From an uncultured beta proteobacterium (lineage in GTDB: Bacteria > Pseudomonadota > Gammaproteobacteria > Burkholderiales > Burkholderiaceae_E): DNA of 61,297 nucleotides. The stretch lies in assembly GCA_903934295.1 (NCBI GenBank), contig CAIZNI010000052.1, positions 1 through 61,297 on the forward strand, given 5' to 3'. Under the pieces are notes generated by a model. That model saw only the letters and a program-made list of their open reading frames with translations, made no database searches and was not told the origin of the DNA. A program made the position numbers and the translations under genes. Positions 5,643 to 11,092 of the stretch are shown here, piece by piece (position 1 is the first letter of the stretch; the number at the start of each line of letters is the position of its first letter).

Positions 5643-6712
5643 AGCTGCCCGCCCACCAGCGCTTCTGGAGCCCGGCGGTGCGCGGGCTGACGCCCTATGT
5701 GCCGGGCGAGCAGCCGACGATCGAGGGGCTGATCAAGCTGAACACCAATGAGCATCCAATGGGGCCTTCGCCAGCGGTGCTGGCGGCGATCCGGGCCGAA
5801 ACGGGCGACGCCCTGCGCCTGTACCCCGATCCCGACGCACGCGAACTCAAGCACGCGCTGGCCGAGCTGCACCGGCTGCAACCCGATCAGATCTTCGTGG
5901 GCAACGGCTCCGACGAAGTCCTCGCACACATCTTCCTGGGCCTGCTCGACCACGGCCGCCCGGTGCTCTTTCCCGACATCACCTACAGCTTCTATCCGGT
6001 CTACTGCGGGTTGTACGGCATCGACCATGCCCGCCCGCCGCTCGACGAGCAGTTCGCGGTACGGGTCGACGACTACCGGCGCGGCAACGGCGGCATCGTG
6101 CTGGCCAACCCCAACGCCCCGACCGGCCGGCTGCTGGCGCTGGCCGAGATCGAGCGGCTGCTCACCCTCAACCCCGATTCGGTGGTGGTGATCGACGAGG
6201 CCTATGTGGATTTCGGCGGCGAATCGGCCGTCGGGCTGATCGGCCAGTACCCGCAGCTGCTGGTGGTGCGGACGTTTTCAAAGTCGCGTTCGCTGGCCGG
6301 CTTGCGGGTCGGCTATGCGATGGGCGATCCGGGCCTGATCGAGGCCCTGGAGCGGGTGAAGAACAGCTTCAATTCCTATCCGCTGGATCGGCTGGCGATC
6401 GCCGCGGCGGTCGCCTCGGTACGCGATCCGGACTGGTTCGAACGCAGCTGCGCCCTGGTGATCCGCGAGCGCGAGGCAATGCGCGAGCGGCTGCAGGCGC
6501 GCGGGTTCGAGGTGCTGCCCTCATGCGCCAACTTCTTGCTTGCCCGGCACCCGCAGCACGAGGGCGCCGCGCTGCAGGCGGGCCTTCGTGAGCGGCGGAT
6601 TCTGGTGCGCCACTTCAAGGCGCCGCGCCTGGACCCGTTCCTGCGGATCTCGGTGGGCACCGAGGCGCAGGGACTGGCGCTGGACGACGCGCTGGCGCAG
6701 ATCCTGGCTTAG
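5639..6712 (+). CDS. hisC: Histidinol-phosphate aminotransferase HisC
   Basis: PLP-dependent fold-type I enzyme of histidine biosynthesis that converts imidazole acetol phosphate plus Glu to histidinol phosphate. In 357 residues it shows LNTNEHP near the N-terminus, the [10 protein letters not shown] block holding the PLP-pyridine aspartate (Asp186), and the Schiff-base lysine in [11 protein letters not shown] (Lys215). It is at the end of the lip operon, with its ATG overlapping the lipA stop. Related aromatic or other aminotransferases share these motifs, so the histidine assignment is probable rather than proven. Confidence 0.88.
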
Positions 6713-7695
6713 GCGGCGACCCGGGCGCGGGTCGCCTTCGCCAGCAGTTCCTGGCGGGCGGTCTCGTACTCGCGCTGCAGGCGCGCGACCAGATCGCCCG
6801 CGCCTTCGATGGCCTTGACCGCGCCGATGCCCTGGCCGCAACCCCAGATCTCTTTCCAGGCCTTCGGCTTCTCCCGGTCGGAGCCGAAGTTCATCTTGCT
6901 CGGATCGCTGACCGGCAGGTTGTCGGGATCCATGCCGGCCTTGATGACCGAGGGCTTCAGATAATTGCCGTGCACGCCGGTGAACAGGTTGGTGTAGAGG
7001 ATGTCCTCGGCCGCGCTGTCGACGATCATCTGCTTGTAGCCCTCGACCGCGTTGGCTTCGCGGGTGGCGATGAACGCCGAGCCGATGTAGGCCAGATCGG
7101 CGCCCATCGCCTGGGCCGCCAGCACTGCATGGCCGTTGGCGATCGAACCCGACAGCAGCACCGGGCCGTCGAACCACTCGCGGATTTCCTGGATCAGCGC
7201 AAACGGCGACAGCGTGCCGGCATGGCCGCCCGCGCCCGCCGCCACCGCGATCAGGCCGTCAGCGCCTTTTTCGATCGCCTTGTGGGCGTGCTTGTTGTTG
7301 ATGATGTCGTGCAGCACGATGCCACCATAGGAGTGCACCGTGTCGTTCAACTCGGGCCGCGCGCCCAGCGAGGTGATGACGATCGGCACCTTGTACTTCA
7401 CGCACATTTCCAGGTCGTGATCGAGCCGGTCGTTGCTCTTGTGGACGATCTGGTTGACCGCGAAGGGCGCCGACGGCGCATCCGGGTGCGCACGGTCGTA
7501 TTCGGCCAGCTCGGTGGTGATGCGGATCAGCCATTCCTCAAGCATCTCCTTGGGCCGGGCATTGAGGGCCGGGAACGACCCGACGATGCCGGCCTTGCAC
7601 TGGGCGATGACCAGATCGGGGTTGGAGATGATGAACAGCGGCGAGGCCACGACGGGCAGGCGCAGGCGGTCACGAAGGATGGGGGGCAGGCTCAT
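6709..7695 (-). CDS. Nitronate monooxygenase family flavoprotein (copy 1)
   Basis: FMN-dependent TIM-barrel protein of the NMO/2-nitropropane dioxygenase family, 328 residues. The N-terminal strand [14 protein letters not shown], the AGAGGHAG phosphate/flavin loop with the candidate catalytic His158, and the [14 protein letters not shown] block are all present. Class members oxidise alkyl nitronates, but many act as NADH:quinone reductases, so the substrate is not fixed. The stop is convergent with and overlaps hisC by 4 bases. It lies 93 bases downstream of the LysR-domain gene on the same strand and is probably in the riboswitch-led transcript. Confidence 0.88.
6715..6736 (+). terminator. 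GC-rich hairpin just after hisC
   Basis: A perfect 8-base inverted repeat, GGCGACCC and GGGTCGCC, with a 6-base loop starts 2 bases after the hisC stop. It has no U-run, so it may be only a weak terminator or mRNA 3' stabiliser. It also encodes the last residues of the convergent nitronate monooxygenase. Confidence 0.35.
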
Positions 7696-7788: not shown

Positions 7789-8106
7789 TCAGGCGGCTTC
7801 CCGGGTTGCGGAACAACGGCGGGCCAGGCGGTCGTCCAGATCCTCGAAGGTCGAGAACAGCACGCGGCAGGTCTCGTAGACCTCCTCGCCGGCGGCGGTC
7901 AGACGAAGGCCCCGGCCATCGCGCTCGAACAGGATCTGGCCCAGCGACTCGGAGAGCTTGCGGATGTGGATCGAGACAGTGGGCTGCGACTGGTGGAGCT
8001 GTTCAGCGGCGCGCGAGCAGCTGCCCAGGCGGGCGGTGGCTTCGAAGGCCACCAGTTGCGGCAAGGTGCCGTGACGCAGATATCGACGAAGACGAGCGCG
8101 TTCCAT
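7789..8106 (-). CDS. Stand-alone LysR-type DNA-binding domain
   Basis: A 105-residue protein containing only the winged helix-turn-helix of a LysR regulator: LPQLVAFEATARLGSCSRAAEQL, then QSQPTVSIHIRKLSESLG and the wing (LFERDGRGLRLTAAG). It ends at a TGA just after the linker-helix region, so the roughly 200-residue effector-binding domain is missing. Only 93 bases separate it from the nitronate monooxygenase, too few to hold that domain in another frame. It may be a truncated regulator, or a functional short DNA-binding protein that dimerises through its linker helix. The ATG follows an AAGGGGTG sequence and a yybP-ykoY riboswitch leader. Confidence 0.75.
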   Translation of the reverse strand: MERARLRRYLRHGTLPQLVAFEATARLGSCSRAAEQLHQSQPTVSIHIRKLSESLGQILFERDGRGLRLTAAGEEVYETCRVLFSTFEDLDDRLARRCSATREAA

Positions 8107-8133
8107 CCATCACCCCTTTGGTGGTGAAAGGCG

Positions 8134-8161
8134 AAAAACCGCTACGCTGTTGACGTGGCGG
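8134..8161 (-). terminator. Candidate intrinsic terminator in riboswitch leader
   Basis: On the minus strand CCGC and GCGG, extended by ACG and CGT across a one-base mismatch, form a hairpin followed at once by five T residues. It is about 55 bases downstream of the riboswitch core and 28 bases before the LysR-domain start. It could be an attenuator that serves as part of the expression platform. Confidence 0.4.
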
Positions 8162-8216
8162 ACCATGCCCCGAGGACCACCCTGCGCCGGACGGCTGTCG
8201 GGCGGAAGGAATCCGT

Positions 8217-8332
8217 GGCAAAGGTCTCGCTTGCAGGCTGCCCGTCGGCTGCTGCCACCTGGACCGGGAGACACCGCGGAAAGCGGCACCACCGTACTGA
8301 CGACCCAGATGAAAAAAGCTACTCCCCTTTGA
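8217..8332 (-). ncRNA. yybP-ykoY (Mn2+) riboswitch
   Basis: Read on the minus strand, this leader has the hallmark 5' sequence AAAGGGGAGTAGC (8330-8318), the middle element GTCGTCA (8304-8298) and the 3' element GCGAGACCTTTG (8230-8219). CAAAGG (8331-8326) pairs with CCTTTG (8224-8219) to close helix P1. These are the conserved elements of the manganese-sensing yybP-ykoY class, which turns on Mn2+ exporters and related genes. A sigma70-like promoter lies just upstream. Unusually the next gene downstream is the LysR-type domain, while the TerC gene, a common yybP-ykoY target, lies on the other side and on the other strand. Confidence 0.8.
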
Positions 8333-8349
8333 GGGGGGAAGCGCGCCAG

Positions 8350-8378
8350 TTTATGATCGGAGCGTTTCCTGAGGTCAA
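8350..8378 (-). promoter_or_regulatory. Sigma70-type promoter for the riboswitch transcript
   Basis: On the minus strand a -35 element TTGACC (8378-8373) is followed after exactly 17 bases by CATAAA (8355-8350) as -10. Transcription would start near 8343, about 10 bases before the riboswitch helix P1. Confidence 0.6.
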
Positions 8379-8433
8379 AGTAGCGCAGGCCCACCCGCTG
8401 CGCAAGACCTTGCGTCGGTCGACGCCGTGCGCG

Positions 8434-8475
8434 AACCCATTGCGAATCGCAATCCATTGCAATTCTTCATGGGTT
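8434..8475. promoter_or_regulatory. Nested inverted repeats upstream of terC
   Basis: AACCCAT (8434-8440) and ATGGGTT (8469-8475) flank two inner palindromes, ATTGCGAATCGCAAT (8439-8453) and ATTGCAAT (8456-8463). The AT-rich palindromes stand out from the GC-rich surroundings and could be a metalloregulator operator or a leader hairpin for the terC gene about 80 bases downstream. The regulator is unknown. The rest of the 8107-8557 interval holds the minus-strand riboswitch and its promoter and terminator; I see no further gene there. Confidence 0.4.
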
Positions 8476-8557
8476 CCTCTCTGGCGCGCCCCGACAATGA
8501 CCCATGAAACGGCGCGGGCATCCGCCCGATACCGGGTTTCTTCAAGGGTCTTTTCCG

Positions 8558-9823
8558 ATGGATATCCTCTCGACACAATTCCTTTCCGCGCTGCTGACGA
8601 TCGTGATCATCGATCTGGTGCTGGCGGGGGACAACGCGATCGTGATCGCATTGGCCGCCCGACGGCTGCCGCCCGATCTGCAACGCCGTGCGGTGATGTG
8701 GGGCTCGGTCGGCGCGGTGGTGGTGCGCAGCCTGATGACGGTGGCGGTGGTCTGGCTGCTCAAGATCCCCGGCCTTCTGCTGGCCGGCGGCGCCCTGCTG
8801 CTGTGGATCGCGCTGAAGCTGATGGCACCCGACGACGGACCCGACGAGGACGGCGTCGCCGGTTCCACGACCTTCCTGGGCGCGATGAAGACCATCGTGG
8901 TCGCCGACGCGGTGATGGGCGTGGACAACGTCCTGGCGGTGGCCGGTGCCGCCCACGGCAGCTACCTGCTGGTGGTGCTGGGGCTGCTGATCAGCGTGCC
9001 GATCGTGGTCTGGGGCAGCACGCTGCTGCTCAAGCTCACCGAGCGCTTTCCCATCATCGTGATGCTGGGCGCCGGCGTGCTGGCCTTCACCGGCGTGAAG
9101 ATGATGCTGTCCGAGCCCCTGATCAAACCCTGGCTGGCCGATGCGCCCTGGATTGCCCCGCTGGCGTGGCTGCTGGGGGTGGGCGGCGTGCTGCTCGCTG
9201 GCGGCGCTCGCCGTTCGTCGGCCACCATCGAGCGCGCACTGCAATCCCACGCCGAACGATTCGCCGCCGACACAGCTGATGGATCCACCACCCTGTCGCA
9301 ATCCCCAAAAGGCAACGAGATGACCCGAGTGCTGGTGCCGGTCGATGGATCGGAAAATTCAATGAAGGCCTTGCGCCATGTGCTCGCCAGCGCGGCAGGT
9401 CAGTCGCTCAAGGTGGTCGTGCTCAATGTTCAACCCGCGCTGACGCAACGCATCGGCCGCTTCGTGCCGGCCGCCAGGCGAGACGACTGGCGGCGCGAGC
9501 GCGCCGAAGCGGCAACCCGTCAGGCGCGCGCGGAACTCGATCGCCAGGGCGTGGCCTGGTCGATGCAGGTGGCCACCGGCCCACGCGCCGAAGCGATCAG
9601 CCAGGCGGCTACCGACAACCATTGCTCGCGAATCGTGCTGGGTACCGCCCGCAAGCACTCGCTTACCCGTCTGCTCGAGAACTCGGTGACCGCGCAACTG
9701 CTCGAGCACTCGCCGGTGCCGGTGGAAGTCCTGGTCGGCCCGCAAGCCTCGACCTGGGAGCGCTGGGGGCTGCCGGCCACGCTGGGCGCCGCGCTGGCCG
9801 CCGCGATCGCGGTGGCGGACTGA
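8558..9823 (+). CDS. TerC-family membrane protein fused to a universal stress domain
   Basis: A single 421-residue frame. Residues 1 to about 235 are a TerC/YjbE-type integral membrane domain with seven or so helices and the conserved acidic motifs AGDNAIVIAL and DAVMGVDNVLAV; relatives export Mn2+. From about residue 255 (MTRVLVPVDGSENS) a complete Usp domain follows, ending with a hydrophobic stretch. The Usp ATP loop GxxGx9GS is degenerate (LGTARKHSLTRLLENS lacks the second Gly), so it may not bind ATP. The ATG at 8558 follows AAGGG by 8 bases. An in-frame ATG at 9320 preceded by AAAAGG could also give a free Usp. The fusion is the unusual point. Confidence 0.88.
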   Translation: MDILSTQFLSALLTIVIIDLVLAGDNAIVIALAARRLPPDLQRRAVMWGSVGAVVVRSLMTVAVVWLLKIPGLLLAGGALLLWIALKLMAPDDGPDEDGVAGSTTFLGAMKTIVVADAVMGVDNVLAVAGAAHGSYLLVVLGLLISVPIVVWGSTLLLKLTERFPIIVMLGAGVLAFTGVKMMLSEPLIKPWLADAPWIAPLAWLLGVGGVLLAGGARRSSATIERALQSHAERFAADTADGSTTLSQSPKGNEMTRVLVPVDGSENSMKALRHVLASAAGQSLKVVVLNVQPALTQRIGRFVPAARRDDWRRERAEAATRQARAELDRQGVAWSMQVATGPRAEAISQAATDNHCSRIVLGTARKHSLTRLLENSVTAQLLEHSPVPVEVLVGPQASTWERWGLPATLGAALAAAIAVAD

Positions 9824-10096: not shown

Positions 10097-11092
10097 TCAG
10101 GCGGTTCGCGCCGCCACCGCCCGGACCAGCCCGCCCGCCGCCTGCGCCGCGGCCCGGTACTCGGCGCGGGTACGGGCCACCAGCTCGGCCACGCCGATCA
10201 CGTCCCGAACCCCCGACACCGAATGGCCGGCGCTCCAGATGTCAGTCCAGCGGACCGCGCCGGTGCTGCCGCCCTTGCCGTAGAGCGCCTTGGCGCGCTC
10301 GGGCGCCAGGTCGTCGGGCAGGTTGGCCGGATCGAGGCCGGCCGCCCGGATCGAGGGACGCAGCATGTTGGTCTCCAGACCGGTAAAGGCCTTGGACAGC
10401 AGGACATCGTCCAGCCGGCTGTCGACCAGCATCTGCTTGTAGCCGTCGACCGCCATGCTCTCGTGGGTGGCGATGAACCGGGTGCCCATGTAGGCGGCGT
10501 CGCAGCCCAGCACCTGCGCGGCCAGCAGTGCCGCACCGTCGGACACGCCGCCCGCCAGCACCAGCGGACCGTCGAAGAACTGGCGCACCGCCCGCACGAA
10601 GGCGAAGCCGTTGGCCCAGCCGGTCTGCCCGCCCGCACCCGCGGTGAGCAGGATCAGCCCGTCGACGCCGGCGGCCACCGCCTTCTCGGCGTGGCGCACG
10701 GAGGCGACATCGCACAGCACCAGGCAGCCGATGTCGTGCAGCGGGGCCACCACCGGATCGGGCGGGCCGACGCTGGTGATCACCATCTCGACCCGGTGGC
10801 GCAGCAGCACCGCGAGTTCCTCCTGCAGCGACTCGCGACGCATGATCAGGTTCGGGCAAAAGGGCGCGTCAGTCGGTCCCAGGGCGGCTTCGATCCGGGT
10901 GATCCAGGCGTCAAATTCCTCGGGCGTTCGGCAGTTGGCGGTGGGAAACGAACCGATCACCCCGGCCCGGCAGGCGGCGATCACCAGCTCGGGGCCGGAA
11001 ACCCGGAACATCGGCGCGGCGATCAGCGGCAGGCTCAGGCGCGAGCCCAGGCGGGCCATCAGCCGGCCGGCGGGCTGGACATCATTGGTCAT
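10097..11092 (-). CDS. Nitronate monooxygenase family flavoprotein (copy 2)
   Basis: A 331-residue NMO-family FMN barrel paralogous to the protein at 6709-7695: SLPLIAAPMFRVSG at the N-terminus, the AGAGGQTG loop and GCDAAYMGTRFIATHES near the C-terminus. At the position of His158 in copy 1 this protein has Gln156, so the proposed catalytic base is absent and classical nitronate chemistry is doubtful. The start is ATG at 11092; longer upstream reading frame is antisense to benE and has no family similarity. It is divergent from benE with a 175-base gap. Confidence 0.82.
   Translation of the reverse strand: MTNDVQPAGRLMARLGSRLSLPLIAAPMFRVSGPELVIAACRAGVIGSFPTANCRTPEEFDAWITRIEAALGPTDAPFCPNLIMRRESLQEELAVLLRHRVEMVITSVGPPDPVVAPLHDIGCLVLCDVASVRHAEKAVAAGVDGLILLTAGAGGQTGWANGFAFVRAVRQFFDGPLVLAGGVSDGAALLAAQVLGCDAAYMGTRFIATHESMAVDGYKQMLVDSRLDDVLLSKAFTGLETNMLRPSIRAAGLDPANLPDDLAPERAKALYGKGGSTGAVRWTDIWSAGHSVSGVRDVIGVAELVARTRAEYRAAAQAAGGLVRAVAARTA

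Follow-up and report, generated by a model that had tools for sequence, protein, structure and literature searches.

The Mn2+ riboswitches known from published work regulate transporter genes in cis (PMC8546581, PMC13274385, PMC11087558). One of these reports describes Mn2+ induction for the yybP-ykoY riboswitch of B. pertussis BP3410 (PMC8546581), and another sets out a mechanism for the Lactococcus yybP-ykoY element, in which the 3' strand of P1.1 enters a terminator without Mn2+, and Mn2+ closes P1.1 and thereby prevents the terminator (PMC11087558). For LysR-type regulators, PMC5002191 gives T-n11-A as the family motif and describes a divergent gene architecture. The locus described here combines these elements: a yybP-ykoY-type riboswitch faces a lysR gene, which is itself divergent from a terC gene.

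The window is the whole stretch of DNA that was analysed, a contig of 61,297 nucleotides from an uncultured beta proteobacterium. A sequence-only reading had placed a yybP-ykoY aptamer with a paired P1 helix on its minus strand, and we located the aptamer there (8213–8337, facing lysR). Inspection of the minus strand identifies the conserved blocks AAAGGGGAGTAGC (8330–8318), GTCGTCA (8304–8298) and GCGAGACCTTTG (8230–8219), together with P1, formed by pairing of CAAAGG with CCTTTG. The letters that define the class are present, namely the loops GGGGAGUAGC and GUCRUCA, the closing GCRAGACC and the P1 pairing. An alignment of 34 elements, the window's included, gives a consensus fold of 29 predicted pairs, and for 21 of these at least one sequence has changed on both sides with pairing kept. 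The secondary structure of the class is present in the window element, and the covariation backs the class fold. Judged by sequence and covariation, the window element is a genuine yybP-ykoY-type riboswitch and would be expected to bind Mn2+. In many aptamers P1 is directly preceded by an initial CCCY (window 8337–8326, minus strand; columns 2–14 of alignment A3). This CCCY could pair with the conserved GGGG and thereby compete with P1, and the CCCY/GGGG region of the window resembles a terminator (GGGGAGTAGCTTTTTT). The terminator-like site at 8342–8321 (minus strand) was not counted, as it includes the aptamer's own P1 5' strand.

A sigma70 promoter had also been proposed for the lysR transcript. 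Its elements are present on the minus strand (8350–8378), with TTGACC (8378–8373) matching five of the six consensus letters and, after 17 bases, CATAAA (8355–8350) matching four. Because a promoter scan, whose rule wants T at the last −10 position, did not list this pair, it remains a candidate. The same scan's plus-strand TTGAGG/TATGAT (8329–8357) was not used, being absent by eye from the sister locus.

To place the element within its class, we relied on covariance models. Pattern searches over 61 genomes returned nine elements besides the window's. Model R1 was built from the 34 aligned elements, window included, and model R2 from 29 elements, with the window, the sister genome G002, G003, G008 and the second copy in the window's own genome excluded. 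R2 recovered the window element at 8213–8337 (minus strand) with 80.1 bits (E = 1.8e-21; next best match 12.5 bits), and it scored the E. coli alx and mntP leaders at 59.8 and 46.0 bits, respectively, so that a single model covers the window and both of these, relating it to proven members. Across the window's own genome, R2 matched this element and one on contig C29, and the third match had 13.8 bits. By eye, the terC leader seemed to hold a half-motif on the plus strand (about 8370–8420); it was rejected, there being no plus-strand match to R1 (E ≤ 1) or R2 (E ≤ 10).

As the sequence-only reading had suggested, we also applied RF00080 (Rfam 15) to both strands, here over 8050–8620. The strand came out as that reading implied, with one minus-strand match and none on the plus strand; the match had 16.6 bits (E = 0.019), below the gathering score of 45. 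There was no match in the window at the gathering score, nor in its own genome at E ≤ 0.001. The low score in the window says little either way, because RF00080 fails its own positive controls: in the E. coli K-12 stretches examined (L211, 1870–2005; L212, 1960–2078), mntP reached 41.6 bits, under the gathering score, and alx was not listed at E up to 0.1. A whole-genome family search with RF00080 does give a match in E. coli. Among 20 related loci with an element by R1, none matched at the gathering score and seven were reported at E ≤ 0.1. Given the sub-gathering mntP score and the unlisted alx, Rfam-based annotation probably misses proteobacterial yybP-ykoY members; betaproteobacterial members escape the current RF00080 model, as does E. 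coli alx in the stretch tested.

The gene on the opposite strand was likewise as described. terC (8558–9823, plus strand), the proposed target, encodes a TerC domain (PF03741, 162 bits) fused to a Usp domain (PF00582, 81 bits), and its TerC is by score a member of TIGR03717, R_switched_YjbE (215.7 bits; curated cut-off 134.8). TerC is linked to Mn2+ in PMC13274385. Neither R1 nor R2 found a riboswitch in the window's terC leader.

This absence, together with the prevalence of TerC as a target, bears on a suggestion of the sequence-only reading, that either the riboswitch controls an unusual regulon or an inversion or gene loss has parted it from its target. We tallied the ORFs that follow riboswitch matches in an order-wide census. 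Of 128 placements, three yielded no ORF, and a further eight ORFs were excluded ahead of the Pfam tally (six with a short lysR skipped by the picker, two cut or misread), which leaves 117. TerC accounts for 75 of these, followed by LysR HTH (13), GDT1 (10), outer-membrane efflux OEP (6) and CitMHS (4), with a P-type ATPase, an Na/Ca exchanger and an ion channel found once each; seven further LysR placements lie outside this tally. LysR is the only transcription-factor family among the 117. Loci L135, L148 and L176 were seen by eye to hold other Mn-type riboswitch targets from the set CitMHS, ion channel, Na/Ca exchanger and P-type ATPase. The second Mn-type riboswitch of the window's own genome (L014, 7723–7847, contig C29) precedes an outer-membrane/membrane-fusion/RND operon of CzcCBA-like type. 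The outer-membrane and membrane-fusion genes of this operon were matched in seven loci (L180 in G002, L012, L015, L172, L173, L189 and L190); at the same mre/rod-linked site, L013 has terC instead, and in L174, L178, L179 and L185 an outer-membrane protein follows terC.

Gene order among relatives decides between the two suggestions. Starting from an alignment of six LysRs, a search yielded 80 loci, and R1 was run on 61 of them; the 19 left out (Thioalkalivibrio and kin) had no riboswitch in a pattern scan over all 80. In 39 of the 61 loci, the 500 bases upstream of lysR contain a riboswitch that faces it. Of these elements 21 trained R1 and match by construction, and the other 18, outside its training, score 46.5–91.8 bits. 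A divergent TerC domain is found within 2.6 kb in 33 of the 39 and in none of the remaining six (L023, L038, L043, L046, L049, L052), and a second riboswitch, facing terC, is present in 11 of the 39. Three further loci have less than 250 bases of upstream DNA, and no lysR-facing riboswitch was found in the last 19: two Nitrosomonas, one unplaced proteobacterium, 14 gammaproteobacterial records and, although they belong to the same LysR clade, L021 and L039. In the census, a riboswitch match occurs in 91 of 399 genomes and faces this LysR in 19 (families f1, f6, f10, f16, f22 and f46; a weak match in G293, 30.4 bits, was left out). For 13 of the 19, a TerC was found across from lysR at a distance of up to 1.5 kb; for six (L101, L102, L103, L107, L109, L119) none was found that near, although an Alx-like ORF running divergently can be made out by eye in L119.

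As read from this gene order, the riboswitch-lysR/terC arrangement is a conserved module and no accident. An inversion or loss, in which a riboswitch that once belonged to terC was turned round and a LysR remnant left behind, would fit the rank of TerC as the commonest target in the order and the window's terC leader, in which none was detected. It is contradicted by the 39 loci with a lysR-facing riboswitch, 11 of which have a terC-facing one as well, by the identical gene order of the sister genome G002, and by the full-length LysR that follows the riboswitch in many relatives; we regard it as extremely improbable. The unusual regulon is the better of the two suggestions, and the window's lineage may once have had a second, terC-facing riboswitch and lost it.

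The first gene behind the riboswitch (lysR, 7789–8106, minus strand) encodes a 105-residue LysR-type DNA-binding domain with a linker region. Pfam identifies the N-terminal winged HTH (HTH_1, PF00126, 76.7 bits) and nothing else; the C-terminal ligand-binding domain (LysR_substrate) is absent from the 105 residues. The LysR of the sister genome G002 likewise consists of HTH and linker. The lone DNA-binding domain that the sequence-only reading had seen is accordingly what Pfam finds, and the window LysR is an HTH-only derivative of its LysR clade, not a complete family member. No NCBIfam family stood above its cut-off among the best 25, and among proteins of solved structure the closest in sequence is a Rubisco operon regulator (5y2v). 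Between the window and G002, dN/dS is 0.13 over 105 codons. Values of 0.13–0.29 were obtained for 10 of 15 HTH-only pairs, which overlap and are not independent, and on these we rejected the possibility that lysR is a pseudogene. The remaining five pairs gave 0.34 (L072/L101), 0.45 (L114/L121), 0.52 (L053/L057), 0.55 (L051/L057) and, for the nearly identical L072/L074, 1.08. By these codon comparisons, the HTH-only lysR gene is under purifying selection.

HTH-only LysRs and the riboswitch occur together. All 12 HTH-only loci among the 61 that have enough upstream DNA, found via the LysR protein, carry the riboswitch. Seven more HTH-only lysR genes with a riboswitch (the window, L018, L101, L109, L111, L114, L121) were all found through the riboswitch. 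A tree was built from 98 columns of 76 HTH domains, 21 of them short and 55 full, with L032 (cut by a contig end), L128 (broken LysR frame) and 19 near-copies excluded; many of its forks are open, and the program gave a long-branch warning. Since this tree needs three changes of state, at least two of them forced by starred branches, the ligand-binding domain has probably been lost more than once. One HTH-only group (L051, L053, L057, L072, L074, L101, L109) shares a conserved EVSSGA-like C-terminal tail.

A nitronate monooxygenase-type gene (6709–7695, minus strand; Pfam NMO) lies downstream of lysR, again as the sequence-only reading had it, which raises the question of whether the riboswitch mainly controls this or other genes after lysR, with the LysR fragment incidental. 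The gene begins 93 bases after lysR on the same strand, and in G002 too it follows lysR. Beyond this pair the association disappears: the gene was matched in 1 of the 80 related-LysR loci (L020, which is G002) and in 1 of 9 (again G002), other lineages have different genes after lysR, and the HTH ORF itself is under purifying selection. We therefore consider control of the downstream genes very unlikely, and the monooxygenase is probably a passenger. Another gene of nitronate monooxygenase type is found immediately past terC (10,097–11,035, minus strand), so that paralogues flank the lysR-terC pair in both the window and G002. In four family-f22 genomes (L101, L109, L114, L121), the ORF after the HTH-only lysR resembles, by eye, a GlcG/DUF336-type protein rather than a nitronate monooxygenase.

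How the riboswitch would act on lysR was examined in the leader. In the predicted fold of the window, the P1 3' strand GAGACCTTTGCC pairs with GGGCATGGTC (8170–8161) in a candidate switching (anti-P1) hairpin (8161–8228, minus strand), and such a hairpin is also predicted, with its own 3' arm, in the sister locus. In both genomes the P1 complement is further off, within a longer hairpin, and no U-run directly follows it. The window's anti-P1 arm is bulged and imperfect, and is followed by a short hairpin, GCGG and U5; its best duplex is equalled by 15% of shuffles. The Shine-Dalgarno region of lysR (CAAAGGGGTG, 8111–8120, minus strand) also complements the P1 3' strand over six bases (CAAAGG/CCTTTG), a run length that is not unusual. 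Among 45 lysR leaders (L032, whose LysR is cut by a contig end, left out), the P1 3' strand serves in 10 as the 5' arm of a hairpin with a U-run behind it (shuffle mean 0.16, maximum 2), and has complements of at least 9 bases in 16 (shuffles 2.2, maximum 6). The arrangement of P1 and terminator in these relatives matches the Lactococcus mechanism as given in PMC11087558. ON-type terminators are kept in the HTH-only relatives L023, L024, L029 and L072. Because the window's anti-P1 platform is not decisive, we take its switch sign from relatives and from the riboswitch class, by analogy with which it would be an ON switch.

Between the divergent lysR and terC genes lie two T-N11-A boxes. The distal box, ATTGCGAATCGCAAT (8439–8453), is a perfect palindrome, and this palindrome (ATTGCGNNNCGCAAT) occurs in the 4.6-Mb own genome as a single copy, at that site. 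The proximal box, ATTGCAATTCTTCAT (8456–8470), is the window's best-scoring site (22 bits by leave-one-out), and 37 bases after its start stands a candidate terC −10 box, GACAAT (8493–8498, plus strand), in a candidate promoter with a poor −35. The exact palindrome is found in 7 of 41 lysR regions, and ATTGC-N5-GCAAT with at most one mismatch in 17 (shuffle mean 1.2, maximum 4). As the strict palindrome search was too narrow, a motif was learnt without a palindrome constraint; it reads ATTGCGAATCTTCAT, with a log-likelihood of 292 against 76–95 in 20 shuffled sets. Leave-one-out scores are at least 14 in 32 of the 41 lysR regions and below 14 in nine, where the regions are related by descent and leave-one-out keeps near relatives in. 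Because of this shared descent the shuffle controls overstate the significance of the operator, and the terC-riboswitch loci without lysR are the better control: upstream of all 31 YjbE-type terC riboswitches with no lysR nearby (28 hand-picked from the 31 eligible, the other three scored later), the motif scores 10.6 or less. Spacing to the terC promoter is conserved as well. Of the 39 regions with a site, 26 have a −10-like hexamer 36–39 bases after the proximal box, with the HTH-only regions contributing 8 of their 15 and the rest 18 of their 24; no later 7-base window has the hexamer in more than 6 of the 39. At the 36–39 spacing it was not found in 13 of the 39, 7 of the 15 HTH-only regions among them. 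The layout of boxes and promoter is like that of the divergent LysR-type systems described in PMC5002191. In these alignments the conserved operator goes with the presence of lysR and with the position of the terC promoter, as it would if LysR binds there.

The sign of such a regulator deserves attention. In LysR-type regulators, oligomer contacts and activation normally depend on the ligand-binding domain, and an HTH-only LysR might instead repress or compete. One could suppose that the riboswitch controls lysR but that the short LysR acts at the terC promoter by repression, or by competing with a full-length LysR, so that Mn2+ lowers terC, or else that the window riboswitch has become an OFF switch. 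The missing effector domain of the window LysR speaks for this, as does the unsettled sign of the window itself, with its imperfect anti-P1 arm, short hairpin, GCGG and U5. Yet the operator adjoins the −35 position, a usual place for LysR-type activators, which favours activation; the operator spacing is shared by 18 of the 24 regions of full-length type and by 8 of the 15 HTH-only ones; ON-type terminators occur in the four HTH-only relatives named above; and an Mn2+-induced repressor of an Mn2+ exporter would be perverse. We judge repression, competition or an OFF switch to be unlikely.

We favour, with reasonable confidence, a relay in which Mn2+ acts through the riboswitch on the HTH-only LysR, and LysR in turn activates terC; the Mn2+ response, operator binding and activation are the predicted steps. 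The features that underlie it in sequence are the aptamer, the conserved layout, the operator, selection on the HTH-only gene and the ON-type terminators of some relatives. The lysR transcript would open with the yybP-ykoY Mn2+ riboswitch. At low Mn2+ the P1 3' strand would pair with its downstream complement, keeping lysR expression low; at high Mn2+ the aptamer would hold P1 closed, and lysR would be expressed. The small LysR, a DNA-binding domain and linker, would then bind the two boxes at 8439–8470, upstream of the terC −10 box, and activate the divergent terC-Usp gene, whose product would remove or handle excess Mn2+. Because the window's lineage has no terC-facing riboswitch, LysR is the sole visible Mn2+ link to the window's terC, and the link between riboswitch and terC probably runs through the LysR protein and the intergenic operator. 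In the 11 of 39 relatives with a second riboswitch in the terC leader, the circuit would form a feed-forward loop.

A broader proposal, to which we give an even chance, is that sensing has been transferred from protein to RNA: riboswitch-bearing LysRs would have shed the ligand-binding domain at least twice, leaving a bare activator set only by its riboswitch-controlled amount, and a metal-gated feed-forward loop where terC also has a riboswitch. If so, HTH-only LysRs would be natural allosteric regulators without an allosteric domain, their sensing moved into their own mRNA, and would give a clean system for studying shifts between protein and RNA sensing. With a riboswitch on a transcription factor, a single RNA sensor would be able to reach a second promoter in trans, and its place on lysR would explain how terC is tied to Mn2+ although it has no riboswitch itself.

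The literature searched contains no report that brings yybP-ykoY, LysR and TerC together; an earlier mention is possible, for example in Dambach et al. 2015, which lies beyond that search. Passages from two of the papers that name both yybP-ykoY and LysR draw no link between them, titles and abstract openings on related subjects carry nothing on the riboswitch-lysR/terC layout, and a Cupriavidus genome paper mentions LysR, riboswitch, manganese and TerC.

Comparison with described systems shows what the locus shares and where it departs. E. coli alx and mntP, B. pertussis BP3410 and L. lactis yybP have the same conserved loops, P1 switch helix and fold as the window, but their riboswitches lead into transporter genes, whereas the window's leads into a transcription-factor gene. 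By score the window TerC belongs with the YjbE-type TerC proteins of TIGR03717; it differs in having no riboswitch of its own, in the switch on the neighbouring regulator and in the Usp fusion. The metR-metE and ilvY-ilvC pairs resemble the window in their divergent regulator and target and in a shared region with tandem inverted-repeat boxes. In those pairs, however, the effector acts on the regulator protein, while the window's regulator has no ligand-binding domain and its mRNA carries a metal riboswitch. Control of a transcription factor by a riboswitch is exemplified by tfoX, which is controlled by a c-di-GMP riboswitch, and there, as would be the case in the window, the amount of a DNA-binding protein depends on an RNA sensor. 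The window differs from tfoX in its metal ligand, its LysR family, its divergent exporter-type target and its lost sensor domain, and, among its relatives, in a target that sometimes has a second copy of the riboswitch.
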